From the NCBI GenBank assembly GCA_003152215.1, contig PLZP01000069.1:1-48549 (forward strand): DNA of 48,549 nt. Direction: 5' to 3'. The stretch is from Acidimicrobiaceae bacterium (GTDB lineage Bacteria; Actinomycetota; Acidimicrobiia; Acidimicrobiales; RAAP-2). A model generated the notes under the pieces. That model saw only the letters and a program-made list of their open reading frames with translations. It had not been told where the DNA came from and made no database searches. Shown here piece by piece: positions 4,375-33,330 of this stretch (positions are counted from its first letter, which is position 1; the number at the start of each line of letters is the position of its first letter). The position numbers and the translations under genes were made by a program.

Positions 4375-4910
4375 TGCTCGAGAAAGGCCAGTCCGGCCGC
4401 GGCACTCTTCTCCGGGTGGAACTGCACGCCCAAGAAGGATCCTCGCTCGATGGCGACGATAACTCCGTCGGACGTCGCGACGCTGTCGTTCGACTGTGCG
4501 GCGTAGGAGTGCGCGAAGTAGTAGGCCTCGCCCCACGGATCGACCTGCGCCCAACCAAGTCTCGGAACTCGACCTTCGCTCATGCGGTAGACCGAGCCTG
4601 CGAGGAGACCGATTCCCTCGACGCCGCCATCCTCTTCACTCGTTTCGAGCGCGAGCTGCATGCCAAGACAGATGCCGAGTATTGGTCCCCCGTCATCGAA
4701 TCGTTCTCGAATGGCCCGTGCCGCACCGGTCGTATTCAGATGTGCCATTGCGCTGCGCGCCGATCCGACACCAGGGAGCACGACCTGCGCACTCCCCTTA
4801 ATCGTGAACGGGTCACTGGAAACGACACTCGTTGCACCAAGGTGAGCCAGTGCCGCCCGGACCGATCGAGTGTTGCCGGCGCCGTAGTCGACGACGACAA
4901 CGTCACTCAC
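4356..4910 (-). CDS. hisH: Imidazole glycerol phosphate synthase subunit HisH
   Basis: VVVVDYGAGNTRSV, GICLGMQLALETSEE and GVQFHPEKS glutaminase motifs. Confidence 0.96.
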   Translation of the reverse strand: MSDVVVVDYGAGNTRSVRAALAHLGATSVVSSDPFTIKGSAQVVLPGVGSARSAMAHLNTTGAARAIRERFDDGGPILGICLGMQLALETSEEDGGVEGIGLLAGSVYRMSEGRVPRLGWAQVDPWGEAYYFAHSYAAQSNDSVATSDGVIVAIERGSFLGVQFHPEKSAAAGLAFLEQCLSRA

Positions 4911-6427
4911 AAGGATCCTTTGGTGGAGCGAACGAGTGAACCATCTCGCGTAAGAGCTTGGGCCAGTGCTCGGCCAACGGCCTTAAAGGACGCCTCGGCC
5001 ACGTGGTGGTCGTTCTCGCCCGTCGCGGTGACGTGCAACGTAATGCGAGCGGTCTGGGCCAGTGACTGAAAGGCGTGGGCCGCCATGCCCGGATCTGGAT
5101 CGATGGAGATGTTGGCAGTAGCTCGTCCCGATAGGTCGACGACGGCGTGCGCGAGCGCCTCGTCCATGGGAACGCGAGCCTCGCCGTAGCGGGTTAGTCC
5201 GCGACGATCGCCGAGCGCTTCGTCGAGCGCCTCGCCGAACGTTCGCATCATGTCCTCGACCATGTGGTGTTCGCCGGTCTCCAGATCCCCGACACCTTCG
5301 AGGCGAAGGTCCATGCCACCGTGAAACGCCAACTGCTGGAGCATGTGATCGTAGAAGCCCAGTCCCGTGTTGACGTACACCCGTCCTTCGCCCGGCACAC
5401 GAAGGCGAACGGTGAGGAGCGTCTCGGCCGTGGCACGACGGTGGCGAAGGGGCTGGCTCGGCAGATCCACGCCCTTCATGACGCAGCGCAGCGCGTCGAG
5501 GAGGACCTCGTCGTCCAGTTCATCTTTGACGCTGATGCGCAGACCTCCGGCGTAGGCGCGCACCACAACGCCAAAGGCCATGAGTTCATTCACCAACCTT
5601 TCGGGATCGTCCATAGGAATAAACAGGAAGTTCGTGAACGACGTAAGTGGCGTGAGTCCGAGTTTCGTTAACTCGCCCGCGAGTCGATCGCGTTCCGCGT
5701 TCTGGCCTGACACGTCCAGCGGCGTGGCGATCGCCGCCAACGCCAGCGACGCCGAGAGCGATGACACGGACAACGGAGCCTGGTACGAGGTGATTATTTC
5801 AATCAGTTCGGGGCTCGCAATGGCGTAGCCGACGCGCGCTCCGGCGAGCCCGTAGGCCTTCGAGAACGTGCGCAGCACGATCGCTCCATCGCGCACTCGA
5901 TCGAGTGCGTCAACCCCGGCGTAGTCGGCGTAGGCCTCATCGATAACGAGTTGGCCCGGGACGTCAGGGATGTCGACCAACTCCCCCGTCGGATTATTGG
6001 GGCGGCAGACGAAGACGAGATCCGCCTCGGCGGGGTTGTCCACGATGGAGGCGCCAGCCATTGACGCGGCAAACGGGTACATCGAATAGGAGAACTTCGG
6101 CACGGTTGCGACGGTGCCTCCCTCGGCGAAGAGCCTGGCGAGCAGGACGATGAACTCGTCACTCCCCGCGCCCAATGCCACCTGATCGAGACCAACGTCG
6201 TGTCGCTTCGCGATTGCCTCGCGCAGGGCGACGTAGCGTCCGCGATCGTATTCATTCACGTCGGCGAGCGCTCGGGCCAGCGCCGCCGGGCGCGCGCTGG
6301 GAGGTGGCGTCGCCGCGACGTTCCCGTCGAAACGAATGATGGCGCGAGGGTCGAGACCGGCACGTTCAGCAATGACTTCATTCGACGGAGGCCACTGGTA
6401 CGCATCGAGCGCGACGGGGCGCGTCAT
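4907..6427 (-). CDS. hisC-hisB: Fused histidinol-phosphate aminotransferase (N-terminal) / imidazoleglycerol-phosphate dehydratase (C-terminal)
   Basis: N-terminal PLP aminotransferase motifs (RPNNPTGELV, DEAYADYAG, RTFSKAYGLAGARVGY); C-terminal IGPD motifs (TGLGFYDHMLQQLAFHGGMDL, GEHHMVED, YGEARVPMDEALAHAVVDLSGR, DHHVAEASFKAVGRAL) in one uninterrupted 506-aa frame. Confidence 0.95.
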   Translation of the reverse strand: MTRPVALDAYQWPPSNEVIAERAGLDPRAIIRFDGNVAATPPPSARPAALARALADVNEYDRGRYVALREAIAKRHDVGLDQVALGAGSDEFIVLLARLFAEGGTVATVPKFSYSMYPFAASMAGASIVDNPAEADLVFVCRPNNPTGELVDIPDVPGQLVIDEAYADYAGVDALDRVRDGAIVLRTFSKAYGLAGARVGYAIASPELIEIITSYQAPLSVSSLSASLALAAIATPLDVSGQNAERDRLAGELTKLGLTPLTSFTNFLFIPMDDPERLVNELMAFGVVVRAYAGGLRISVKDELDDEVLLDALRCVMKGVDLPSQPLRHRRATAETLLTVRLRVPGEGRVYVNTGLGFYDHMLQQLAFHGGMDLRLEGVGDLETGEHHMVEDMMRTFGEALDEALGDRRGLTRYGEARVPMDEALAHAVVDLSGRATANISIDPDPGMAAHAFQSLAQTARITLHVTATGENDHHVAEASFKAVGRALAQALTRDGSLVRSTKGSL

Positions 6428-18710: not shown

Positions 18711-19310
18711 TTAGATGCGACCTTCGAGTGTCGAAAGGAATCGATTCAGCGAATCGAGCGTCGCCTTGACCGCGGAGACAAGGTCATCCTCGGAGCGCGC
18801 AATGCCGAATCGGTCCGCTTCATTTGCGAGTGACCGTAGCGTCACAATGACGGGCCAATCGCGGCCGTTCGTGACGTTGGTAACAGTCATCAATGAGTAC
18901 GGGACGTCGTAACCAAGGTCGCGAAGCGCCGCGAGTGTCGCCTCGGCGCCACCAATGAGTGGACCGCTCCCCGCCCGGCCAATCCCGGTACGTCCGTCGA
19001 CGGACAGTTGTACTTCACAGAAGCCGTCGCTCGTGTCGTAGTCGGCGCGGATGAGAGCGACGCGCGGACCTTCCCCACGGTTCTTGTCGGCCAACGCGCG
19101 GTTTGCGTCTTCGATGACGACGGCCGCTTCGGGGTAGTACAGGCTGGCGATCTGGGTGGCCGCGCTGCGCGTCGCAATCGGGTCCTTGCTGTTCGCGACG
19201 AGCGTCACCACGTCAACGTCGCCGTTGGGGTGCTTCGTTATGCCAACGTTCAGCACACCTGGGAGCGAGCGGAGTTCGAGTTCGAAGTCCTCTTCGGTTC
19301 TTGACATCAT
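18711..19310 (-). CDS. Conserved hypothetical protein in a c-di-GMP operon
   Basis: 199 aa, overlaps the upstream GGDEF gene by 4 nt. Confidence 0.65.
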   Translation of the reverse strand: MMSRTEEDFELELRSLPGVLNVGITKHPNGDVDVVTLVANSKDPIATRSAATQIASLYYPEAAVVIEDANRALADKNRGEGPRVALIRADYDTSDGFCEVQLSVDGRTGIGRAGSGPLIGGAEATLAALRDLGYDVPYSLMTVTNVTNGRDWPVIVTLRSLANEADRFGIARSEDDLVSAVKATLDSLNRFLSTLEGRI

Positions 19311-20200
19311 GAGATGCGAATGCCCTTCTTTTCGTAGAGACGTCCGTCGGCCAATCGCAACAACTCACCGGGGTCGGTGGAGTCGCGCGGCGACGTAGCC
19401 GTGCCAATCGTGAACTCGACGGGATTGCCCAGCGTGACGAGGTGACCGCGGAGTCGCTCGGTGAACCCCGAGGACTCGTGTCCTTCCGCGTTACTCAAGA
19501 TGACCGCAAATTCGTCGCCACCAATGCGCGCCGCCATGTCGCCTTGGCGAACCGCTTGACGAAGGGCGAAGCCGAACTGACGCAAGAGGTGATTCCCGTA
19601 TTCGTGCCCGGAACGGTCATTGACGGCCTTGAAGTTGTTGAGGTCGACGAGGACGAGCGTGAAGGCCCAGCCGTAGCGGGCACTTCGAGCGGCCGCGACT
19701 TCCAACGCTTCGTCAAAACTGCGGCGGTTCGCGATATTGGTGAGTGGATCGTGCGCGGCGCTGAAACGGGCCAGGTGGAGCGACATCGCTAATTGGCACG
19801 CGGTACGAACGGCATCGCATTCGGCAACCGGCACGTGGTCGGGCTCGCAGTAGACACCGGGTGACGCACTCAGGTGGGCCGCCATATCTGGCGTCACTGC
19901 TTCTCCACCCAAACGGAACATCTGCGTGCCGAAGTTGTCGTTGACGAGCACAACCGCGACGTCGGTCAGCTGGTGACGTTCGGCGAACAGTTCAAGGATT
20001 GCGTAGATGAATCCGACGCCGAGTTCGCGCTCGGACAGTTCGTTCAACATTGTCTGAAACAACCACGGTTCGTAGTCCTCGCCGTTCGCGTCGCTACGCC
20101 GCATTTCAGGGTGAATCGAAGAAAGCGTCGCTCCAGTTTCGTCGGTCCCGTCACCTGACTCGTGAGCTGAATCGGCGGTCGAACCGTTTTTTGAACTCAC
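19307..20200 (-). CDS. Diguanylate cyclase (GGDEF domain)
   Basis: DPLTNIANRRSFDE, VDLNNFKAVND and RQGD(I-site)-MAARI-GGDEF. Confidence 0.9.
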   Translation of the reverse strand: MSSKNGSTADSAHESGDGTDETGATLSSIHPEMRRSDANGEDYEPWLFQTMLNELSERELGVGFIYAILELFAERHQLTDVAVVLVNDNFGTQMFRLGGEAVTPDMAAHLSASPGVYCEPDHVPVAECDAVRTACQLAMSLHLARFSAAHDPLTNIANRRSFDEALEVAAARSARYGWAFTLVLVDLNNFKAVNDRSGHEYGNHLLRQFGFALRQAVRQGDMAARIGGDEFAVILSNAEGHESSGFTERLRGHLVTLGNPVEFTIGTATSPRDSTDPGELLRLADGRLYEKKGIRIS

Positions 20201-22497
20201 AGCTGTAAGTCTGCCAGTTCCAGCGGTGTCTTCTCCACGGGTCGCAAGAGTGACGACGGTACCGAGCCCGCACGAAGCATTTCGGAGAGTTCAGAGGCTG
20301 GGACCGGACGAGAGATGAGGTAGCCCTGGCCGCGGTAGCAACCGAGTTCGAGCAGCTTCTCAATGATGGCCCCGGACTCGATGCCCTCGGCGATAACGCC
20401 GAGGTTGAGTGCCGCACCGAGTCGGATGATCGATTCCACGATCGCCCGGTCGTAATTGTCCGTTGTGATACCGCGTACGAAACTCATGTCCAGCTTCAGG
20501 AGGTTGACGGGGAGGTTCTTCAGGCCGGTCATCGACGCGAAGCCCGTACCGAAGTCGTCGAGCGCAATCTCAACACCCAAGGCCTGAAAGCCCTTTAGAA
20601 TTCGCGCAATTCGCTCGGGCTCGTCCATCACCGCATACTCAGTGATCTCGATGCACAGGCGGTTGCCCGGAACGTTGTTCTCGCGCAGACAGCGTTCGAC
20701 GAATTCGACGAGGTCGCCCATTTTGAAGTCGGCCGGGGACATATTGATGCGAACAATGAAGGGCAGATCTGGGTACTCGTTTTCCCATTTCGACAGCTGG
20801 CGACAGGCCTCGGCAAAGACCCATCGACCGATTTCGGTGACGAGACCGGTCTCTTCGGCCACGGTGATGAACTCCGAGGCCGCGAGGAGTCCACGGGTTG
20901 GGTGCTCCCAACGCACCAGCGCTTCGGCGGCGAGCACCTGACCGGTGCGCAGATTGACCTCGGGCTGGAAATGCAGGCGAAGGCCGCCCGTTTCAATGGC
21001 CTCACGAAGCATGAGTTCGGTGCGCGAGCGGTCGTTGACCTCTTCGCGAAGTTCCCGGTCAAAGACGACGGCCTGGTTTCGACCACGGGCTTTGGCGGCG
21101 TACATTGCCACGTCGGCCCACCCGAGAAGGTCCAGCCCGCTCTGCTCACCGAGCTCCGCCATGGCGATGCCGATACTGGCCGTGTGCGTGACTTCCTGGC
21201 CGGCGATGGCAACGGGCTGGGCGATGACGTCCAGCATTCGATAGGCGGTGGCCAGAATCTCCATCTCACTCTTGGCCTTGTCGACGATGAACACGAATTC
21301 GTCGCCACCGAGTCGGGCGGCGAAGTCGTTCACCCGGATGCTCGTGCGGAGGCGGTCGGCAATCGTCACGAGGAGTCGGTCGCCGCTGCCGTGACCGAGG
21401 TAGTCATTCATGATCTTGAAGCGGTCGAGGTCGATAACCATGACCGCCGTCTCACGCTTCGCGTCGAGACGGCTCTTCAACTCTTGAATGAGGGCGCGTC
21501 GGTTCGGCAGTCCGGTGAGCTCATCGTGATTGGCGTTGTAGCGAGTGCGCTCTTCGGCGTCAATCCGCCCTTGGAGTTGAACGAGCATCGAGGCAACGGC
21601 CTGCAGAGCGTTGATTTCGGCCGGGACCCAGTTGTGCAAATTGAAGTGGAGGAAGCCGAGCGTGCCCCAGGTCGAGTCGCCGAGCAGTAGCGGCACGGCA
21701 GCACCGGCGGCCGGTGTCTCCCCGCCGGCCTCCACCGAGCGGTCGCGGTAATCCTCGGTTAGGTCATCGGTGCCGGTGAGATACGGAGAACGCAAATCGC
21801 GCAACGCCATGAAAATAGGGTCCGCATCGAAGGGCACTTCACCGAGCGGGTCGGGGTCGGGAATGTCACGGACTGGCCATTCGGCTTCGAGGATCGTAAG
21901 GCCTCGCGTCAGATCGTTGCGACGGATGAATGCGACATCGGCGCTGAGGAACTCCGCGAGCACGGCACAGACCCAGTCGAGCACTGCCTGACGGTTCGTC
22001 GCCGAAGCCGACATCAATTTTTCCGCCACTTGAGCGACCAATTCGTCCAGACGACGCTGGTGCAACAAGACGCCCTCGCGCGTGGCAAGGGTCGCCACGT
22101 GACTGAGCAAACTTCCAAAGGCCTTGGTCAATGATCGTTCGCGGCCGGACCACGTGCGACCGTGTCGAGCGACCACGAGCGCACCGACGACGTCGCCATC
22201 TGCAACGACGATGTGATCAACGAGGACACCCCATTCAACCCCGAGTACGACGCAGGAGAACGAGCCGGGCGGCACGTCACCCGACAACTGTCCGCGGACG
22301 CGTTCGCTGATCGTCTCGAACGCTTTCTCGGAATCGGTGCCGACGAGTGGTTCGAGCTCAAACCCGGGGATGGGTCTCGCGAGATTCGTCACGACGGCGA
22401 CGATTTGTGTACCAGGAACTACCTGGAGAAGTGTCTCGACAACTAGACGGGTCTCTTCACCCGCGCGGTCTAGATACGAATGGTTGACACTTCTCAT
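20197..22497 (-). CDS. GAF-GGDEF-EAL bifunctional c-di-GMP synthase/phosphodiesterase
   Basis: GLPNRRALIQ, RVND(I-site)-FAARL-GGDEF, then EALVRW, EITE, DDFGTG, KLDMSFV, AEGIES and GQGY; all EAL catalytic motifs appear intact. Confidence 0.93.
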   Translation of the reverse strand: MRSVNHSYLDRAGEETRLVVETLLQVVPGTQIVAVVTNLARPIPGFELEPLVGTDSEKAFETISERVRGQLSGDVPPGSFSCVVLGVEWGVLVDHIVVADGDVVGALVVARHGRTWSGRERSLTKAFGSLLSHVATLATREGVLLHQRRLDELVAQVAEKLMSASATNRQAVLDWVCAVLAEFLSADVAFIRRNDLTRGLTILEAEWPVRDIPDPDPLGEVPFDADPIFMALRDLRSPYLTGTDDLTEDYRDRSVEAGGETPAAGAAVPLLLGDSTWGTLGFLHFNLHNWVPAEINALQAVASMLVQLQGRIDAEERTRYNANHDELTGLPNRRALIQELKSRLDAKRETAVMVIDLDRFKIMNDYLGHGSGDRLLVTIADRLRTSIRVNDFAARLGGDEFVFIVDKAKSEMEILATAYRMLDVIAQPVAIAGQEVTHTASIGIAMAELGEQSGLDLLGWADVAMYAAKARGRNQAVVFDRELREEVNDRSRTELMLREAIETGGLRLHFQPEVNLRTGQVLAAEALVRWEHPTRGLLAASEFITVAEETGLVTEIGRWVFAEACRQLSKWENEYPDLPFIVRINMSPADFKMGDLVEFVERCLRENNVPGNRLCIEITEYAVMDEPERIARILKGFQALGVEIALDDFGTGFASMTGLKNLPVNLLKLDMSFVRGITTDNYDRAIVESIIRLGAALNLGVIAEGIESGAIIEKLLELGCYRGQGYLISRPVPASELSEMLRAGSVPSSLLRPVEKTPLELADLQL

Positions 22498-22637
22498 GGG
22501 GGATCTACCTTTGCCGACAGATAAAGGCCTGGATCAGGGGTCGCGCCTTTCGGCACGGCCTCTGATTGCGTTCACTTCCAGGGAACGATTATTGCACAGG
22601 CGCTGGAGTAAGTAAACCCCAACATTTGCACCATTTC

Positions 22638-25600
22638 TCACCTATTTTGTATTGGAAATGACTCGATTGGCGACAAAGTTTCAGTCTCGCGACTTAAAAC
22701 GTGGCTCAGCGGAAGTCGAACACTGTGCACCGAGGGCGGTGGGGCCTGGAACACACGAAAAACCATGATTGCGGTCTCTCCGTCAGTGAGACCCCAGAAC
22801 TGATTGAACCGTTCGGAGAGAGCGAACATCTCATCGAGGTACCGTTCGCCCGCCATTTCTCGCATGTCGGCCTCGTCGATGGCGTAGAGGAAGACCGGCG
22901 AGGCCGGCTGGACGGCCAAGCCGTGCATCTCGGCGCTCAACCAGAAGCGTTCCATCGCCGCTCCCCCTCGCACGTACCACATCGGATCGGCGCGCGGCAC
23001 CGTAATAATCGCCAGCGCCGAACTCGTCACAATCGAGGCCTGCATACGCAGCCCGAGTGCCGATCCGGCGCGCCAGTCCGAGAGGTGGCTCATGACGTCG
23101 GGCCGGCTGAGTAGTTCGAGTGCCGCGTAACCGCCTGGGTCCATTTCGAGTGTGCGGACGTCGAGGCCCTCCTCGAGCGAATCGCGACCGGGCCACTTGA
23201 TCTCAGAGAGCATCTCTTGGTGCACCGTGGGAAGGAGAAACCGCAATCGGTCCGACGCCGCGAGAAGCTCCGCGCCAACTTTGACCTGTTCGCGCTCGGT
23301 CGCCAGATGAAGGTGTGCGCCTTCACGCTCGACGCCGCGCATCAGCGACCGCACGGTCTCCGGGTCGATGGTTGTTGGCTGTCCCATTCGCCGGTTCGAC
23401 GACCGGCTGAGAAGGTAGTCGCGGAGCGGCGCGATTGCCACGTCGTCTGAAGTGCCCAGCGTCATCGACGCCACGTGGTGCGAGGGTCGACCCTCGGGGA
23501 AGAGTTTCACTAGACCGAGTTTGCGAAGTGACGCGGCCTGCACCCTTGCGTTGAAAAGCGCGGCGCCAATTCCAACGTAGGTGCCACGATGCGCGACGTC
23601 CATCGTGGAGGTGCGTTCAGGCAGCATGAAAAAACGAATCTCATCGCCGTCGGCTTCGAATCGCCACGGCTGCACGTTGCCGCCCGAGGGTGCCCTGCGA
23701 GCGGCGTCAACGATTAACTCAATAGGGTCGTCGCTCACGAGCGGTGGATCCTCGGGCGCTGGGGCGAAGAGGTCAGCTTCGGCTTCGAGGTTCACTTCTA
23801 CCGGTCCGAGAGCCGAGAGGATCTCTTCCACGTCGAAGCGCACACGGCCAGAGGGCAGTTCGCCCGCGAGGCCGAATCGTCGCACGGCGGCCGCGACCGT
23901 GGCCGCGCCGAGAGTGATCTCGCTTCCGAGCTGCGGCCATCCGGTGATGGTCTGGCCGACCTCTAACAGCGAAGCCGCGCCGCGCGATGACGCTTCCTTG
24001 GCGCCAATGAGTCGAATGACGTACGGCCCCTTCTGGGCGGTCGTCAGGTTCGCCAACTTAGATGAGTCCATATCACCAAGCAGCCCGTGAAAGATCGGAC
24101 GGTCCGGTTCGAGGTCGAATCGTTCGACGTCGAGGACGCCACGATCACTCGTTTCCATGATGACGGGGATTCGACGTTCGCGGGCCGCCTCTCGAATGAG
24201 GAACTTCATGTCGAGCGAATCGCACTCCTCAATGACAAGGTCGAGTCCGTCCAGGAACTCACCCAGGTTCTCGGGACGAATGCCGGTCGGATCAACGGTG
24301 ACGCGCAGGTAGGGATCAATCTCTGCGATACGACGGGCGGCCACCACTGCTTTGTTGACGCCCAAGTCGAGCACGCTCGCGGGAACTCGGTTGAGATTGG
24401 AGAGTTCAAGGGTGTCGAAGTCCGCGAGACGGATCTCGCCGGCCAGTCCCTCCATGGCAATGACGTGGGCAATCGTGTGGCCGGCGCTGAGTCCGACGAC
24501 GCCAATGCGCAGCGAGCGTTGTCGGGCCTGTTCGGCGCGCGTGATCTTGTTACGGTTTCGGTCCAGTCGAAGCGTCGAGAACGAACGTGGTGCGAGTAGC
24601 CGCACAACGGCTCGGCGCCACGGGTAGTACACCCAGCGCGAGCCCTCTTCAATGATGGCGGTGGCGGGGGGAGGAATGATTTCGGCGAGTTGTTCACGCT
24701 GTTCGGCCAGGCGGTCGACAATCTGCAACGCCGAGTCCTCACGAAGGATGCGCAGCACCTCGCGTTGGGCGCGCTCGCCTACGTCGAGGACCAAGGGCCT
24801 GACCGCTCGCGTACGGATGGACGCCGGTTCGATGGGTCCAAGTCCCAAGCGCGCGGGACCGCGAAGCAACTGCTCCGACTCGCGCCGCAGAGCCTGTTGG
24901 TTACCGGGATTCGAGAGTTCGTAGGAGCGCGCCCTATGCCACGACACGGCGACCGTGCGATAGCGCTCGTCGGGAAAGGGTACCCACTGCGTCCCAACTT
25001 GCACCCCACCGGTCACGTCACCCACGGGCATCAGCGAGTCCGAGACTGCCGCGATAGCGAACTCTGCGCCGAGCCAGGTCATGGCGTGCGTGACCGACCT
25101 CGAGATAGCAGCCAGAAGTCGGGTGCCGACTACGGTCGCTCCCTTGGACCACGCACCCTTCACTTCAAGTGCACCGAGACGAATCTCGCGCTCGATCACG
25201 TCGTGAATCACACCAATCTCGGGTGAGGACGCCATCTCTTCGAGGATTGCTGCTTGGTAACTCCCCTCTAAGGGTCCATGGAAACGCACGCCCGCGACGG
25301 GCGCACCCTCTGCGTCGAATCCAAGAATGAAGAGCGGGACGTTGTTGCCTTCTTCGAGTTCGAGGCGTCGCAACGTTCCCTCAAAACCACGGCTTCGAAA
25401 GATGCCCTCGGCTTCATCGAGGTATATCTTCCATAAGTCGGGCCGTTCGAGCGGGTGATGACCTTCGAAGCGAACACCGGACTCTTGGTCCACAAAGCTC
25501 GAGCCATACCAGTAGCGACGCCCGATTGTGTTAGCCACTGACCACCATTTCCGTTCTTCGTAAAGGCTCCGACAACCTTGGAATTCGCCGCGATTTTCAA

Positions 25601-25796
25601 CAAAACTATAGTGAAACGAGCCCGAAAATTGGTGGACCTCGCTCCGCCAACTTTGCTCATTCGAGAGAGAAAAATCGCACTCAGCACCAACCTCGCTCGC
25701 GGTGCCACGACGAAGCGTCGCCTCAGATTTCCAGAGGGACAACCGGAATTCACACGCCACGTCCATAGAATGGACAACGTGTCGACCACACAGCAT
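22638..25796 (-). CDS. Multidomain fusion: acyltransferase-like N-terminus, E1/ThiF adenylating domain and nitroreductase-like C-terminus (Rv1355c/MoeY-like)
   Basis: ThiF motifs RIGVVGLSAGHTIAHVIAMEGLAGEIRLADFDTLELSNLNR; nitroreductase motifs AARRAPSGGNVQPWRF and MWYVRGGAAMERFWLSAEMHGLAVQPAS. First ~85 residues look like upstream readthrough; GTG at 25538 is a likely start. Confidence 0.85.
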   Translation of the reverse strand: MLCGRHVVHSMDVACEFRLSLWKSEATLRRGTASEVGAECDFSLSNEQSWRSEVHQFSGSFHYSFVENRGEFQGCRSLYEERKWWSVANTIGRRYWYGSSFVDQESGVRFEGHHPLERPDLWKIYLDEAEGIFRSRGFEGTLRRLELEEGNNVPLFILGFDAEGAPVAGVRFHGPLEGSYQAAILEEMASSPEIGVIHDVIEREIRLGALEVKGAWSKGATVVGTRLLAAISRSVTHAMTWLGAEFAIAAVSDSLMPVGDVTGGVQVGTQWVPFPDERYRTVAVSWHRARSYELSNPGNQQALRRESEQLLRGPARLGLGPIEPASIRTRAVRPLVLDVGERAQREVLRILREDSALQIVDRLAEQREQLAEIIPPPATAIIEEGSRWVYYPWRRAVVRLLAPRSFSTLRLDRNRNKITRAEQARQRSLRIGVVGLSAGHTIAHVIAMEGLAGEIRLADFDTLELSNLNRVPASVLDLGVNKAVVAARRIAEIDPYLRVTVDPTGIRPENLGEFLDGLDLVIEECDSLDMKFLIREAARERRIPVIMETSDRGVLDVERFDLEPDRPIFHGLLGDMDSSKLANLTTAQKGPYVIRLIGAKEASSRGAASLLEVGQTITGWPQLGSEITLGAATVAAAVRRFGLAGELPSGRVRFDVEEILSALGPVEVNLEAEADLFAPAPEDPPLVSDDPIELIVDAARRAPSGGNVQPWRFEADGDEIRFFMLPERTSTMDVAHRGTYVGIGAALFNARVQAASLRKLGLVKLFPEGRPSHHVASMTLGTSDDVAIAPLRDYLLSRSSNRRMGQPTTIDPETVRSLMRGVEREGAHLHLATEREQVKVGAELLAASDRLRFLLPTVHQEMLSEIKWPGRDSLEEGLDVRTLEMDPGGYAALELLSRPDVMSHLSDWRAGSALGLRMQASIVTSSALAIITVPRADPMWYVRGGAAMERFWLSAEMHGLAVQPASPVFLYAIDEADMREMAGERYLDEMFALSERFNQFWGLTDGETAIMVFRVFQAPPPSVHSVRLPLSHVLSRETETLSPIESFPIQNR

Positions 25797-25843
25797 CTCG
25801 AAGCGTCACCAAGTGGCTGCGACGCCAGTGCGTCAGGTAGCCA

Positions 25844-25861
25844 TTGTCACGTTTTTGTCAC
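25844..25861 (+). promoter_or_regulatory. PhoB/OmpR-type direct-repeat box upstream of the response regulator
   Basis: TTGTCAC-gttt-TTGTCAC: two identical 7-mers with 11-bp periodicity, about 30 bp before the TTG start at 25892. Confidence 0.6.
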
Positions 25862-25891
25862 AAATTTGGTTGAGAAAGTAGACGGAGAGAA

Positions 25892-26602
25892 TTGACCAAG
25901 ATCCTGGTCGTTGATGACGACGCCGAGATGACCAAACTGCTCGACACGTTCCTCACGGGCGAGGGGCACGAAGTGCTCATCGCCACCGACGGAGCGCTCG
26001 CAGTGCGGGCCACTTCGTCAATGGAACCGGACCTCGTCCTCTTGGACATCGTGCTGGGAAGCGAAGATGGCCGCGACGTTTTGCGTGAACTGCGACTCAT
26101 CAGCGACGTACCGGTGATCTTTCTCACCGGTCGCGGTCTCGAATCCGAACGTATTGCTGGGCTGAAACTGGGTGCCGACGACTACATTGTCAAACCGTTT
26201 TCGCTGGGCGAGGTTTCGGCGCGAATCGAATCTGTGCTTCGTCGTTCGGGTGCGAATTTGGCCCAACTACACATCGACGCTCCGACCATGCACTTCGGCG
26301 ATCTTTTGATCAATGAGAACACACACGAAGTGCATCTGCGCAGCGGGTTGCTCGAGTTGACGTCCAAGGAGTTTGCGCTCCTCGCGTTTCTCGCTCGTTC
26401 ACCCCGTCAGGTTTTCTCGCGCGAACAGTTGCTCGAGCACGTCTGGGAGTCCTCCAGCGAATGGCAAAACGAAGCGACTGTCACCGAACACATCCGTCGT
26501 CTGCGAGCGAAGCTGGAAGTCGATCCCGATCATCCTCGCTGGATAACAACGGTTCGCGGCGTGGGCTACCGATTCGAACCAGAGCCGATCGCTCCCTCGT
26601 AG
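25892..26602 (+). CDS. OmpR-family winged-helix response regulator
   Basis: ILVVDDDAEM, LVLLDIVLG, VKPFSLGEVSARI and C-terminal Trans_reg_C; GGAGAG RBS before the TTG start. Confidence 0.92.
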   Translation: MTKILVVDDDAEMTKLLDTFLTGEGHEVLIATDGALAVRATSSMEPDLVLLDIVLGSEDGRDVLRELRLISDVPVIFLTGRGLESERIAGLKLGADDYIVKPFSLGEVSARIESVLRRSGANLAQLHIDAPTMHFGDLLINENTHEVHLRSGLLELTSKEFALLAFLARSPRQVFSREQLLEHVWESSSEWQNEATVTEHIRRLRAKLEVDPDHPRWITTVRGVGYRFEPEPIAPS

Positions 26603-26624
26603 TACCGGGCGTGAAGTAACCGAC

Positions 26625-28667
26625 TCAGTGGCGGCGCGCCAGGAGATCGTGCACGTTGTCAACCAGTTCACTTGGCTTGAAGGGTTTCGCGAGAAACTCC
26701 GCAGATCCCTCATTGAGTTCGCCAATGACTGATCGACTCGCGGTGCCCGACACGATCAAGACCATTAACTTCGGATTCTTTGCCTGTAATGCCATCGCCA
26801 GGTCACGACCGGACATCTCGCCCATGACGAAATCACTGACGAGTAAATCAAATGTTCCAATGAAGTCGTCAACCACGTCGAGTGCGGATTCCGCGGAGTC
26901 AGCAATCACGACTCGGTAGCCGTTGCGCTCGAGGATGCGACTCATGAATCGACGCAACTCCTCGTCGTCGTCCACGATCAACACGGTTGCCGTGTCGTGG
27001 GCGCGATCGAGTTCCGCGACCGCAAAGGTCTCGACGGGCTCTTCGTCGACTGACGGCAGCAACACTTCGAAGGTCGTGCCTTCACCGAGCACCGAGTGAC
27101 ACGTAATCGCTCCGCCGCTCTCCTCGGTGAGTCGTCGAGCAGCCGCGAGGCCCATACCCGTACCCTTGAAGAGGCCCTTAGTCGTGAAGAGTGGCTCGAA
27201 GCAGTGTGCCCGCGTCTCCTCGCTCATGCCAATGCCGGTATCCGCAACCGACAGCACCACGTAGTCACCTGGACTGAGTCCAAGGGCTGGGGCCGACGTA
27301 TCGTCGAGTGTGGCCGCCTTGACCGCAATGGAGAGCTCCCCACCATCGGGCATCGCGTCACGGGCGTTGATGGAGAGGTTGATGATCATCTGCTCAAATT
27401 GGTCGACGTCCGCTCGAACATTGCCCGCGCGCTCGTCCGCTGACCAATGGACCTCAATCGCGTTGCCCAACACTCGTTCGAGCACCTCGGCATTTGATTG
27501 AATCACCGCCGCCGGATTGAACACCATCGACTCTGGCGGTCGAGTTAGTCCAATCGTCTGCAATTGACTCGTCAACATCGAGGCGCGCGACGCCGTTGCT
27601 TGAATCTCTTTCACCATTTGAATGGATCTTTCATCGCCGACAAGATCAGTGGAAAGTATCTCGGCGTATCCCGAGATGAGAGTGAGAAGGTTGTTGAAGT
27701 CGTGCGCGATGCGACTTGCGACCTGTCCGCGAATCTCCATGGTGTAGGCGTGGCGAAGTTCGGCCTTAAGTTCTCGATGATTCGTTACGTCGTCAATCAG
27801 GGTAAGAATCCCGGGCTCTTCGCCACGGGTCGGCGGCAAGCGTGCAGCCGAGGCACTGAGGACACGCATTTTGCCAGCAATTTCGACATCGACGAAGTCT
27901 CGACCATCAACCGCGCCACCACGTTGGACTTCGGACCAGAGTTCTTGGAGCTCCGGCAACGTAGCTTCGGGAAACGTCGTCGTAGAGACGTCAAGTTCGT
28001 CCGTGAAGTCGGGCCACGCGAACACGCGACTCGCGGAGCGATTCCACCAGCGGACGCGGCCGGTCATGTCCGCCTCCACGATCCCGACCGGTGCCGTTTC
28101 AATCAGTACACGGAGTCTCGCCTCGCTTGATTGGACGGTGCGTCCGAGTTCGGCAGCTCCGAGCGCGCTCGAGGCCATTTGGGCGAGGAGGACGAGTACT
28201 TCCTTGTCTTCATCGACGAAGTCCGCGTTGGGCGTTCGTCGAACCGCGACGACACCTCGGGCCAGATTCCTCCCTTCAAGGATCGGCGCGACGAGCCAGC
28301 CATCTTCGAACCTGGTCTCGCTGCCAACTTTCCAATTCGAGGGGTAGTTCGACGACTCGCTCGGCCTTGGCACCTCACACTGCGGGCTTTGACCACGATG
28401 AGCGACGCCGCGAAGCGGCGCGGCCGAACCAACCTCGAGAGTGACGATTGCCGTTTCTGCGTCAAAGACACTTCTGCTGCTCCCAGCGAGACCTCTCAAG
28501 ATGTCCCGTTCACTCCTCATCGACGTCACGGTGATTGAGGCGGCAATCAGTTGATGGAGTTGACTCGCGATTCGTTGGGATCGGCGAACGGCGTCGCGCG
28601 TCGTTTCGACCAACTCAACCTGATCGTTTTGGAGGGCGTTGCCCGGCGACTCTTTTGACGTGGTCAC
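26625..28667 (-). CDS. Hybrid sensor histidine kinase (GAF-PAS-HisKA-HATPase-REC)
   Basis: RIAHDFNNLLTLISGYAEIL, NLSINARDAMPDGGEL, DTGIGMSEE, GTGMGLAAARR; C-terminal REC VLIVDDDEEL..LLVSDFVMGEM..LAKPFKPSEL. Confidence 0.92.
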   Translation of the reverse strand: MTTSKESPGNALQNDQVELVETTRDAVRRSQRIASQLHQLIAASITVTSMRSERDILRGLAGSSRSVFDAETAIVTLEVGSAAPLRGVAHRGQSPQCEVPRPSESSNYPSNWKVGSETRFEDGWLVAPILEGRNLARGVVAVRRTPNADFVDEDKEVLVLLAQMASSALGAAELGRTVQSSEARLRVLIETAPVGIVEADMTGRVRWWNRSASRVFAWPDFTDELDVSTTTFPEATLPELQELWSEVQRGGAVDGRDFVDVEIAGKMRVLSASAARLPPTRGEEPGILTLIDDVTNHRELKAELRHAYTMEIRGQVASRIAHDFNNLLTLISGYAEILSTDLVGDERSIQMVKEIQATASRASMLTSQLQTIGLTRPPESMVFNPAAVIQSNAEVLERVLGNAIEVHWSADERAGNVRADVDQFEQMIINLSINARDAMPDGGELSIAVKAATLDDTSAPALGLSPGDYVVLSVADTGIGMSEETRAHCFEPLFTTKGLFKGTGMGLAAARRLTEESGGAITCHSVLGEGTTFEVLLPSVDEEPVETFAVAELDRAHDTATVLIVDDDEELRRFMSRILERNGYRVVIADSAESALDVVDDFIGTFDLLVSDFVMGEMSGRDLAMALQAKNPKLMVLIVSGTASRSVIGELNEGSAEFLAKPFKPSELVDNVHDLLARRH

Positions 28668-28791
28668 TGACTCAAACGTCCCGCGAAGCTTTCAGCCACC
28701 AAGAACTTGGCCGGCTTTCGGTGACGGGAGCAACTATGGCGAAGCATCGATGCTGCGCGCAAAGAGTCTCGATCGAAACTCCTGACGCGAA

Positions 28792-29634
28792 TCAAAGAGG
28801 CTTCCCAGAAAAGATTGAGAAATCCTCCAGATAGTGATCAATCTCTTGCGCTTCGTGCGGCCTGGAGAAGTGAAAACCCTGACCCACCGAGACATCTTCG
28901 AGTTGCAATTGTTGACGCTGTTCCGCGTCCTCAATTCCTGACGCGACGATCTGCAAGTTCATCTTCTTCGACAGTTCCACAAGCTCGTGCACCTGCGCTA
29001 CCGAGGTGGTTGACTCAGACATCGACGAGATAAATCGACGTTCGAGTTTGACGATGTCAATCGGTGAGCCCTCCAAATCACTGAGCTGGGACTTCCCTGG
29101 CGCAAAGTCGTCAACGGCCAATCGAACGCCAAGTTCCTTCAGGGCGCGTAGTTGGGCACCCGAAGCACCCGCCAGAATTGATTGGGCGAACTCGAGGACC
29201 AGCAGCGAACGGGGGAAGCGACTGGACATCAGGATCTCGTCCACGTCGCCAACGAAGTCCGATGACTCAAATTGGCGCACGGAGATGTTTACGGAAACGG
29301 AGAATCGATAACCCTTGTCGTGCCATTGGGCTCCCTGAGCGCAGGCCGTTGACAGCGCCCATCGACCGACCGGAAGGATCAGTCCCGTCGACTCGAGCGC
29401 CGGAACGAACGAATCCGGGTTCACTACGCCACGCTCAGGGTGTCGCCATCGAAGGAGTGCCTCCACGCCCACGAACGCATTCGTATGCAAGTCAATCTCG
29501 GGTTGGTACACCAAGAAGAACTGGCCCTTGGCCACGGCCGTTTCCAGGTCGGAGTTCACGTCGTGACGATCGTTCGCCGCATCAGATTCACTCGCTTCGT
29601 GTGCCACTGTGCATCGCTTCCCAAGGATTTCCAC
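28792..29634 (-). CDS. Degenerate EAL-domain protein
   Basis: LVYQPEIDLHTNAFVGVEALLRWRHPERG, VNISVRQF and QGFHFSRP, but LEFAQS, DDFAPGKSQ and ASGIED deviate from EAL catalytic motifs. Confidence 0.88.
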   Translation of the reverse strand: MEILGKRCTVAHEASESDAANDRHDVNSDLETAVAKGQFFLVYQPEIDLHTNAFVGVEALLRWRHPERGVVNPDSFVPALESTGLILPVGRWALSTACAQGAQWHDKGYRFSVSVNISVRQFESSDFVGDVDEILMSSRFPRSLLVLEFAQSILAGASGAQLRALKELGVRLAVDDFAPGKSQLSDLEGSPIDIVKLERRFISSMSESTTSVAQVHELVELSKKMNLQIVASGIEDAEQRQQLQLEDVSVGQGFHFSRPHEAQEIDHYLEDFSIFSGKPL

Positions 29635-30108
29635 CGTAGAAATCGGCGGTACATATTGGAGTACTCCTCGGTGGTGACGATATCAGCCAAGCAATTATTA
29701 GCGACCACTCTTCCCCACGATGCGCGCTGTCAACCCGCAACGTCAAACTCGGAAAGTGGCGCACGTCGTGATGTTGCGCTCGCCCGTGAGCGTTACGAAT
29801 GCGGCACGACGTCAGAGTAATTTCGACGGCGCCCTTCCGCGCGATTCCAGCAGGCACGACGTAAAAATCCGCTCACCCGGCTCTGAAGGTCGGTCACCGC
29901 CGGAAAATAAGTGACGTTCGAGCACACGCGATGAACAGAAACATCGTGTCCCCAGACGAGCGGGCCGATCGGTCACCGTGGGAGAAAGTGCGTATTCTCC
30001 CTTGAAAACGCAGGAATGACACGATTTGCACTACGGCATCACTACCAATTGACAAAAGAGATGGGCTCTGAGAGAATTCTGCGGCGCAGGGGCATTAGGA
30101 GAAGAATC

Positions 30109-33100
30109 ATGTTCAAGGTTCGAATTCGGCCCATTGCTGACGTCAAATTTGGACCTTCAGCGATGGCCGACATGTCAAACCTGGGCCCGTGGCGCCGCAT
30201 CGCACTTTTCTGCGGTGCGTTGGTTCTTATTGCCTCCTTCTTCAGTTTCTACGGTGTGCTCCCGTCGAGCGCCGCAACGAATGTACTGACCGCGCCCTTT
30301 AATGAGTGCCCCGCCATTGGTCACGACAGCGGTTGTGCCTTCTTGATCATCTTGAACAGTGCGGGTCCCGCGCAGATTGTTGCCAATCCTTCCGTGGGAC
30401 CTTTCGACGGCCACAACGACTCTCTCGTCGGCATCGTCAACAACAGCGGTGCCACCGTCGACTCCGTTTCTGTCGCCTCGAACAAGGACATCTTCGCCTT
30501 CGACGGTGATGGCATATGCGCACAGAACAGTCACGGCAATTTGCTCTACGCCTGGAGCGGAACCGGCCAGACCACCCAAGGTTCGAGCGACTGTCCATTC
30601 CTCCCGGCAATGGCGACGACCGCAGGATATGACGGCTTTGATTACGCCGGTCCGAACACTTCTTTCAGCAACTTCTCAAACTCAGATGACTACCACTCTG
30701 GCAACGTGAACTTCCCCGCCGGACTGGCGAACGGTACGAGCACCTACTTCAGTCTCCAGAACGTCCTCTGCTCCGCTAATTTCTCATTCCCCGCCAGCTT
30801 CAACGTCACGAAGTCAACAACGTCGACGGGCGTCACCGCTGGATCCAGCACGCCGATTGCCTACACGTTGACCGCCCACAACCTTGGTGGCGTGCAGGGC
30901 AACGTGACGGTCTCCGACACAGCGCCGGCCGGTACAACGTACGTTGCCGGATCGGCCGCATGCCCCGCTGTCGCGTCGCCCGAGACCTGCGGCGTGACGA
31001 ACAACAGCGGCACCCTCACATGGACGTTGACCAACGTGCCCGGTGGCGCGTCGGCGACTCTTGCGTTTTCCGTGACGGTCCCCATTGGTTACGGCAGCAC
31101 CACCGTCGCAAATACCGCGTCATGGAGTGGACCCGGTTGCGCGACGGCAACATGTTGGACCAATTCAATTTCCACTTCGGTTGCGCCCGCTTCGTTCACG
31201 TTGACGTACAACGCAGAGACCGGCGGTTCAGTCGTAGGCAGCACGCCGCAAACGGTTGACTTCGGACTGAACGGTACGACGGTCACCGCTGTCGCCTCAC
31301 CCGGTTACTACTTCACGGGATGGAGCGACGCCGAAGCCAACGCCGGACGCACTGATGACGACATCATGTCGAACCTCACCGTCACGGCCAACTTTGCGCC
31401 CCTGACGAGCAGCGTAAGTACGTGGGTATGGGCGAACGGCGGACCGGTGACCGGCAACCTTCTCGCGGGCGTCGTTGTCTCCGATACTGCGTCCATTTCC
31501 GTGAACCAGAGTTCAATGCCCGGTGGCACGGTGAGCTTCACCTTGTATTCGGGCGGATGGTGTGATCTTGCGACGGGCGTCGGCACCGGCGGTACCGCGA
31601 CCTCCGACTCACCGATGACGAGCCCGGTCAGCGGTGGCAGTGCCTACTCCGGCAACTTCGCACCACTCAGCCCGGGTAGTTACTACTTCGTCGCCACCTA
31701 CAGCGGCGATGGGAACTACCCGGCAGCCACCGGCCCGTGCGAACCTTTCTGGGTCTGTCCCGCCCCCGTCAGTTCGACGAGCACAACCGTCAACGCAAAC
31801 GGCTCTCCCATCGGCACCTCGCCAATTAAGACGAACGACTCGATCACCGACAAGGCGAGCGTCACTGGCAACGAAGAGACCACCGCGACCGGCATGGTGA
31901 CGTTCACGTTGTACTCGGGCGGTTGGTGCACCCAAGGTACGGGATCGGGCGGGACCCAAGTGGGCTCGCCCTTCACGACCGCGTTGGACGCGAGCGGCAA
32001 TGCAACCTCTTCAGCGTTCAAGTGGCTCGCGCCCGGGACCTACTACTTCGTGGCCAATTACCTAGGCGATGGGACCGACCCGCCGTCGAGCGGACCGTGC
32101 GAACCGTTCACGATTGTGCCCTGTCCCACGGCGGTGGTCACGACGACGGTCTGGTCGGGATCGAGCATTGTGACCGCACCCCTCACTGAACCGGCCTCCG
32201 TGACTGACGAAGTGAACGTCGCCGGCAATGAGAGCGCGAAACCTACGGGGAACGTCACGTTCACGCTCTACACAGGCGGTACGTGCAACAACGGGCAGGT
32301 CGCCTCCAACGGAACCCAAGTCGGCTCTTCATCGAGTGGTCTCCTCGACGCCAATGGCGACGCCACGTCCGCGACCTTCAGCGGACTTACTGCCGGCAGC
32401 TACTACTTCGTGGTGAGTTACGCGGGCGACGGCGTCTATCCACCCTCTACCGGCAACTGTGAGCCATTCACGGTCTGTCCCGCGCCGAAGAGTTGGACCA
32501 GCACGGTGGTGAACTCCGGCGGTGCGCCAATTGTCGGCACACCGCTCGGACTCGACGCAACGGTCACCGACACCGCCAATGTCACAGGTAACGGCAACAA
32601 CAATCCGAGTGGTTCGGTAACCTTCACTCTCTACACTGGCGGCACCTGCAACGGACAGGGATCTGGTGGCACGGTGGTGGGAACCGATACCGAAACGCTC
32701 GACGCCAATGGTTCGGCGACATCGATATCCTTTGGCCCCCTCGCGGCTGGCTCGTATTATTTCGTAGGTGTCTACACCGGTAGTGGGACCGCGTCGTATC
32801 CGGGCTCCACTGGAGACTGCGAGCCGTTTACGGTGAGCTCACAGTCGACCACGTCCACAACCTCTCCTGTGACGACTTCAACGACGTCCTCTTCATCCAC
32901 GACATCGACGACGTCAACAATTCCCGTGACATCGACGACGATGCCAACAACACCGTCAACATTGCCCGGAACGACGACGACGTCATCCACAACGTCAACG
33001 ACATCGACAACGTCAACAATTCCCGTGACATCAACGACGATACAAACAACGCCACCGGGAACAACGTCCACGACATCGACGACTTCCACAACATCGACAA

Positions 33101-33330
33101 CGACGACAACGATCCCGCCGATTACGTCAACGACGACAATCAACAACGGTCCGCCCACGACGTCACCGCATATTCCTCCCGCGACGATTCCCTCAGGCGC
33201 CCCCGGCACGGGACTCGGAGGGGCCGCGACGTCCTCGGTCAATGGTGGCGTACTCATCTTGAGCATCCTGCTCCTCTTCTTCGGCCTCGCGGGTCTAGGA
33301 CTCGTCCTGCGACGTCGTCGTCGGGCGTAG
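30109..33330 (+). CDS. Large secreted surface protein: DUF11-like domain, InlB-B-like repeat, four Ig-like repeats, Thr/Ser-rich linker, C-terminal sorting-signal-like tail
   Basis: Strong RBS aggagaagaatcATG at 30109; signal peptide; TYVAGSAACP..LTNVPGGASATLAFSVTV (DUF11-like); C-terminus GAPGTGLGG-TM-RRRRRA. Confidence 0.85.
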   Translation: MFKVRIRPIADVKFGPSAMADMSNLGPWRRIALFCGALVLIASFFSFYGVLPSSAATNVLTAPFNECPAIGHDSGCAFLIILNSAGPAQIVANPSVGPFDGHNDSLVGIVNNSGATVDSVSVASNKDIFAFDGDGICAQNSHGNLLYAWSGTGQTTQGSSDCPFLPAMATTAGYDGFDYAGPNTSFSNFSNSDDYHSGNVNFPAGLANGTSTYFSLQNVLCSANFSFPASFNVTKSTTSTGVTAGSSTPIAYTLTAHNLGGVQGNVTVSDTAPAGTTYVAGSAACPAVASPETCGVTNNSGTLTWTLTNVPGGASATLAFSVTVPIGYGSTTVANTASWSGPGCATATCWTNSISTSVAPASFTLTYNAETGGSVVGSTPQTVDFGLNGTTVTAVASPGYYFTGWSDAEANAGRTDDDIMSNLTVTANFAPLTSSVSTWVWANGGPVTGNLLAGVVVSDTASISVNQSSMPGGTVSFTLYSGGWCDLATGVGTGGTATSDSPMTSPVSGGSAYSGNFAPLSPGSYYFVATYSGDGNYPAATGPCEPFWVCPAPVSSTSTTVNANGSPIGTSPIKTNDSITDKASVTGNEETTATGMVTFTLYSGGWCTQGTGSGGTQVGSPFTTALDASGNATSSAFKWLAPGTYYFVANYLGDGTDPPSSGPCEPFTIVPCPTAVVTTTVWSGSSIVTAPLTEPASVTDEVNVAGNESAKPTGNVTFTLYTGGTCNNGQVASNGTQVGSSSSGLLDANGDATSATFSGLTAGSYYFVVSYAGDGVYPPSTGNCEPFTVCPAPKSWTSTVVNSGGAPIVGTPLGLDATVTDTANVTGNGNNNPSGSVTFTLYTGGTCNGQGSGGTVVGTDTETLDANGSATSISFGPLAAGSYYFVGVYTGSGTASYPGSTGDCEPFTVSSQSTTSTTSPVTTSTTSSSSTTSTTSTIPVTSTTMPTTPSTLPGTTTTSSTTSTTSTTSTIPVTSTTIQTTPPGTTSTTSTTSTTSTTTTTIPPITSTTTINNGPPTTSPHIPPATIPSGAPGTGLGGAATSSVNGGVLILSILLLFFGLAGLGLVLRRRRRA
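31408..32840 (+). repeat. Four tandem Ig-like repeats of about 115-120 aa within the surface protein
   Basis: Recurring VTFTLYxGGxC ... PGSYYFVxxYxGDGxYPxxxGxCEPFxVCPAP. Confidence 0.8.
32845..33180 (+). repeat. Low-complexity Thr/Ser-codon repeat encoding a cell-wall-spanning linker
   Basis: acgacgtcaacaacg-type repeats encoding (TST)n with IPVTSTT duplications. Confidence 0.85.

Follow-up and report, generated by a model that had tools for sequence, protein, structure and literature searches.

A predicted single-chain TrzA-TrzS oxazolone synthase in an Acidimicrobiaceae genome and the pairing of its relatives with diguanylate cyclases

The fusion enzyme and its neighbours

The window analyzed here is a stretch of 48,549 nucleotides (contig PLZP01000069.1, GenBank assembly GCA_003152215.1) from an Acidimicrobiaceae bacterium, in which a multidomain fusion enzyme is encoded among genes for the turnover of cyclic di-GMP (c-di-GMP). 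A preliminary description, made from the sequence alone, had listed these genes, and each one it named was confirmed at its coordinates. The fusion gene lies on the minus strand in an apparent open reading frame of 1052 amino acids (22638-25796), in which Pfam recognized a ThiF domain (9.5e-23) and a nitroreductase domain (1.4e-9). Because its relatives share the GTG at position 25538, we place the start there (22638-25538, 966 amino acids), and the first ATG of the frame is probably not the true start. The NCBIfam model NF005901, "Rv1355c family", matched the fusion at 900 bits, against a cut-off of 476, over profile positions 8-719 of 722, so that the earlier suggestion of a true Rv1355c relative was well founded.

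Rv1356c and Rv1355c of Mycobacterium tuberculosis were characterized in December 2025 as TrzA and TrzS, respectively: TrzA N-acylates tryptophan, and TrzS carries out an ATP-dependent cyclization and an O2-dependent desaturation, yielding N-acyl tryptazolones (PMC12856293). The adenylation and redox reaction that the preliminary description had called unknown is therefore, for this family, the oxazolone synthesis of TrzS. In the window, the TrzS-type region, an adenylating ThiF cyclase followed by a flavin-dependent oxidase, spans 22692-24812 (minus strand), and the alignment showed strong conservation of its SNLNR, ECDSLDxK and PSGGNxQPW motifs. By position, ECDSLDxK and the likewise conserved SDRxR may hold the equivalents of two TrzS residues, the aspartate D217 of the adenylation motif and the arginine R540 of the flavin domain. 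We rejected a molybdopterin role and the associated moeY label, which had already been considered unsupported: the ThiF domain has no CxxC zinc site, MoeB models scored far below their cut-off, and residues 400-680 have a single cysteine, C525 of the adenylation motif, which disfavors sulfur-carrier chemistry and hence the moeY name.

Upstream of ThiF lies a third domain of the fusion, at its N-terminus, which was overlooked previously (24876-25532, minus strand) and which we assign as a TrzA-type N-acyl amino acid synthase, or N-acyltransferase. Searches of Pfam, NCBIfam and PDB sequences gave no match to it. A hidden Markov model comparison revealed homology to the separate TrzA genes that immediately precede TrzS in mycobacteria, rhodococci, nocardiae and Jiangellaceae. 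Its AlphaFold model (predicted local distance difference test, pLDDT, 92.4) had FeeM (2g0b) as best Foldseek match, with the N-acyl homoserine lactone (AHL) synthases BjaI, LasI and TofI among the next matches, and both sequence and fold place it in the TrzA/FeeM family. A single chain of 966 amino acids is thus predicted, from sequence and structural models, to hold an acyltransferase, a ThiF cyclase and a flavin oxidase, that is, the whole predicted acyl-oxazolone pathway. We infer that this one chain runs all three steps, and the amino acid and acyl chain are likewise named by inference. Similar triple fusions occur throughout the genus of the window (Acidimicrobiaceae metagenome-assembled genomes, MAGs), and another family, f72, has them as well; locus L061 also encodes a TrzA-TrzS fusion of the Acidimicrobiaceae type. 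The fusion gives a known pathway a new, single-chain form, although triple fusions may have been described earlier.

Next to the fusion gene, on the same strand, lies a gene for a GAF-GGDEF-EAL protein of the Rv1354c/DcpA type (20197-22497), identified with Pfam. Rv1354c/DcpA is a bifunctional GAF-GGDEF-EAL protein with dual activity (PMC2994820), and the window protein has the same domain order and intact catalytic motifs, including a GGDEF with an RxxD I-site and a complete set of EAL motifs. Its GAF domain (21571-22086, minus strand), our proposed oxazolone sensor, adopts an ordinary GAF fold in the AlphaFold model (pLDDT 87.8) and matched, at 3.7e-71, the profile of the TrzS-adjacent GAF family, which was built from window and mycobacterial members. 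A second diguanylate cyclase gene (19307-20200, minus strand), with GGDEF and I-site intact by Pfam and motif check, shares 4 bp with the GAF-GGDEF-EAL gene. It is followed by a gene for a 199-amino-acid protein with a weak LeuA-dimerization-like C-terminus in Pfam (18711-19310, minus strand). That gene is conserved across the genus of the window and throughout it remains in tight linkage with the second GGDEF gene, which it overlaps.

The second GGDEF gene is common in this genus, whereas three further genes, all assigned with Pfam, stand beside the cluster in some relatives only. These encode an OmpR-family response regulator, transcribed divergently from the synthase (25892-26602, plus strand), a hybrid GAF-PAS-HisKA-HATPase-REC sensor kinase (26625-28667, minus strand) and a stand-alone EAL protein (28792-29634, minus strand). 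The last had been likened to Rv1357c, an active enzyme which, among the mycobacteria studied, is reported from tuberculous species only (PMC6988586). We rejected it as a counterpart on its motifs, since the window protein has LEFAQ for ExTE, DDFAPG for DDFG and SGIE for EGxE, a degeneration repeated in four relatives (L052, L055, L056 and L092). Because these motifs are lost, the protein is probably not an active phosphodiesterase; it may bind c-di-GMP, which makes it a candidate receptor. The core shared by the window and the M. tuberculosis locus is TrzA-TrzS-cyclase. Adjoining the degenerate EAL gene, positions 30016-33330 (plus strand) encode a surface-type protein of 1104 amino acids with Big_3_5 Ig-like repeats, a Ser/Thr-rich stalk and a C-terminal membrane anchor, possibly an adhesin-like output of c-di-GMP. 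Rfam and tRNA scans gave no match. Elsewhere in the window, a HisC-HisB fusion (class I/II aminotransferase and imidazoleglycerol-phosphate dehydratase; 4907-6427, minus strand) belongs to a his operon that also includes histidinol dehydrogenase and hisG.

Pairing of TrzS with c-di-GMP enzymes

The named loci were collected by TrzS alone, and 64 of those from Actinomycetota were informative. Of the 64, 57 had the GAF-GGDEF-EAL gene no more than 700 bp from TrzS, and 52 had TrzA within that distance or fused; the linkage of the sensor enzyme is about as close as that of the enzyme that makes the substrate. In family f72 the cyclase gene is upstream, rather than downstream, of the synthase, and the linkage is kept. 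Co-occurrence was assessed in an even sample of 397 Actinomycetota genomes, with a threshold of E < 1e-40 for the GAF family. TrzS was found in 16 genomes and the GAF family in 18, comprising 16/16 genomes with TrzS and 2/381 without it (Fisher p ~1e-26). The pairing with c-di-GMP genes that had been suspected across distant Actinomycetota is thus real and far above chance. Within the genus of the window, 29 genomes had both, none had TrzS only, one had the GAF family only and seven had neither. At seven loci (L162 in G419, L163 in G189, and L180-L184), a GAF-GGDEF-EAL protein of the family linked to TrzS is encoded in surroundings that, as far as covered, lack TrzS. Distances among GAF domains correlated with those of TrzA (0.89) and TrzS (0.83), compared with 0.78 for the GGDEF and 0.69 for the EAL domain of the same protein, which is suggestive of co-divergence of the GAF domain with the synthase enzymes.

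Among 201 genomes of the mycobacterial family, 63 had both TrzS and the GAF family, 20 TrzS only, 6 the GAF family only and 112 neither. Given its absence from 20/83 genomes with TrzS, we rejected the GAF family as the universal partner, and these genomes led us to a different cyclase in its place: all 20 had another GGDEF gene adjoining TrzA or TrzS. The replacement protein has about six predicted transmembrane (TM) segments; it carries GGEEF as well as an N-terminal [FY]DARS motif, and Pfam named no sensor in this family. It stands beside TrzA in one TrzS clade (L171-L179, L185-L196; L102:7377-8969), and the family also occurs in seven genomes without TrzS. A cyclase of either family lay within 6 kb at 94 of the 95 TrzS-family loci in the 201 genomes, against about 2.4 expected by chance from GGDEF counts with loci treated as independent, so that neighborhood counts bear out the predicted enrichment of Rv1355c homologs beside c-di-GMP genes. 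The partner was GAF-GGDEF-EAL at 62 loci, six-TM GGDEF at 32, and both at none. Since six-TM partners are confined to one fully supported TrzS clade, the TrzS tree points to a single change of partner. Genomes with two synthase loci mostly had one cyclase per locus, one of each type. Ten second members of NF005901 that consist of ThiF only each stood beside their own six-TM GGDEF gene (G337:C7, G483:C37, G516:C3, G531:C14, G544:C1, G567:C1, G578:C1, G599:C16, G609:C26 and G619:C24). In nine genomes, the TrzS-adjacent gene was the sole GGDEF gene. The published record of this association is one discussion sentence, which notes the adjacency to rv1354c and rv1357c in M. tuberculosis and calls it consistent with a signaling role (PMC12856293), and the phylum-wide, clade-matched pairing of synthase and cyclase goes well beyond it.

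Outside Actinomycetota, synthases of Bacteroidota and of one Azovibrio MAG have a different signaling partner in the same position. After their TrzS and TrzA genes come those for a 7TMR-DISM histidine kinase and a REC-HisKA hybrid, with a flanking receiver protein (L113, L114, L117, L118, L120-L124, L126 and L129-L131). At L114, a REC-PglZ protein is also encoded nearby.

A candidate oxazolone input to c-di-GMP signaling

The role of bacterial oxazolones has been described as a major unresolved question (PMC12856293). We consider it an evenly balanced possibility that the locus makes an N-acyl aromatic oxazolone which is the ligand of the neighboring cyclase's sensor, with output via c-di-GMP, in a manner similar to AHL signaling. 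The N-terminal domain would acylate an aromatic amino acid, by analogy tryptophan, from acyl-CoA; the ThiF domain would cyclize the acyl amino acid with ATP, and the flavin mononucleotide domain would desaturate the product with O2. The oxazolone, mostly intracellular in the characterized relatives, would then bind the sensor domain of the co-encoded cyclase, a cytosolic GAF here and a six-TM membrane domain in the sister TrzS clade, and binding would shift the balance between c-di-GMP synthesis and hydrolysis. Given an intracellular product and a cytosolic GAF, with a membrane sensor in the other group, a ligand role for the oxazolone is the most economical reading. Somewhat more doubtful is the wider proposal that acyl-oxazolones serve actinobacteria, mycobacteria among them, as dedicated signals, with direct sensing of each by its cognate GAF or six-TM cyclase.

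Several observations weigh against a ligand role. Tryptazolones were not detected in M. tuberculosis (PMC12856293), deletion of MSMEG_2196 left aggregation unchanged in M. smegmatis (PMC12632254), and GDP was reported as the ligand of the M. smegmatis DcpA GAF domain, according to the citation of that study in PMC8846402. In our own comparisons, either cyclase family was present in 13/118 mycobacterial-family genomes lacking TrzS, and three loci with TrzS, from M. hippocampi, M. brisbanense and Kibdelosporangium persicum (L075, L076 and L128), had no GGDEF gene within 10 kb. The counts were not fully corrected for shared ancestry, and the advantage of GAF over GGDEF in the distance correlations was marginal in the whole set and lost significance outside Acidimicrobiia.

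Linkage and co-occurrence would also fit if information flowed in reverse, with c-di-GMP or the cyclase protein controlling the synthase and the oxazolone being an output of c-di-GMP signaling. The second cyclase, hybrid kinase and regulator around the synthase in the genus of the window look as if inputs converge there, and the M. smegmatis dcpA gene is reportedly co-transcribed as MSMEG_2199-2196 (PMC5741613), which implies co-expression and would suit the ligand role as well. However, Pfam and NCBIfam found no c-di-GMP binding domain in the fusion, and it is a specific sensor domain, rather than any GGDEF protein, that tracks TrzS, its type changing with the synthase clade; we therefore regard reverse flow as unlikely. 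We judge it unlikely too, though a serious alternative, that the GAF domain senses a general cue such as GDP while synthase and cyclase are merely co-expressed in a stress or stationary-phase operon. This explanation draws on the reported GDP-switched GAF and on the same co-transcription, but GDP is universal and therefore fails to explain the near-confinement of the GAF family to genomes with TrzS, and it likewise leaves unexplained why another TrzS clade has a different cyclase in the corresponding position.

That transfer as a cassette keeps the genes together, without a working link between them, seems to us very improbable. The patchy distribution, with members in several orders, and the one partner switch on the TrzS tree would suit such a cassette. 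On the other hand, linkage persists despite changed gene order and orientation, rearranged mycobacterial loci with no TrzA nearby often retain the cyclase, and the two-synthase genomes keep, for the most part, a cyclase for each locus. If the oxazolone does switch the neighboring cyclase, a small molecule would act as an AHL-like signal in mycobacteria and their relatives, with a second messenger as its output, and species with a single GGDEF gene would run all of their c-di-GMP signaling off an oxazolone; M. smegmatis reportedly has only one GGDEF/EAL enzyme (PMC12632254). The input of mycobacterial c-di-GMP signaling and the role of the oxazolones then merge into one question, whether the oxazolone switches the cyclase, and the single-chain fusion offers one protein for making the compound.

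Relation to known systems

The closest known systems are the TrzA-TrzS pairs of M. tuberculosis (Rv1356c-Rv1355c), M. smegmatis and R. jostii RHA1 (PMC12856293), which share with the window a TrzA-type acyltransferase and the same curated family of ThiF-flavin oxidase fusions; in M. tuberculosis, c-di-GMP genes are adjacent to the tryptazolone pathway as well. The window differs in having all three activities in one polypeptide and in the addition of a second cyclase to the cluster, to which some relatives add the hybrid kinase, response regulator and degenerate EAL protein. The same chemistry, in three steps and with an N-acyl aromatic amino acid, is performed by OxzAB from Pseudoalteromonas rubra and by TyzACB from M. 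tuberculosis, which makes tyrazolones (PMC10404671), but these represent different subfamilies from the window enzyme, and the Tyz cyclase and oxidase are separate. Rv1354c, also known as MSDGC-1 or DcpA (PMC2994820), shares domain order, intact motifs and its place beside TrzS with the GAF-GGDEF-EAL protein of the window, which has a longer N-terminus and for which we propose a ligand other than the reported GDP. Finally, AHL signaling of the LuxI type also uses an acyl-CoA-dependent synthase of the same fold to make a five-ring heterocycle that bears an acyl group, and a candidate sensor gene is adjacent. In contrast, the window system has the extra cyclase and oxidase steps, and a c-di-GMP enzyme takes the place of the LuxR transcription factor as its candidate sensor, so that it would resemble AHL signaling in its working while standing outside that family.

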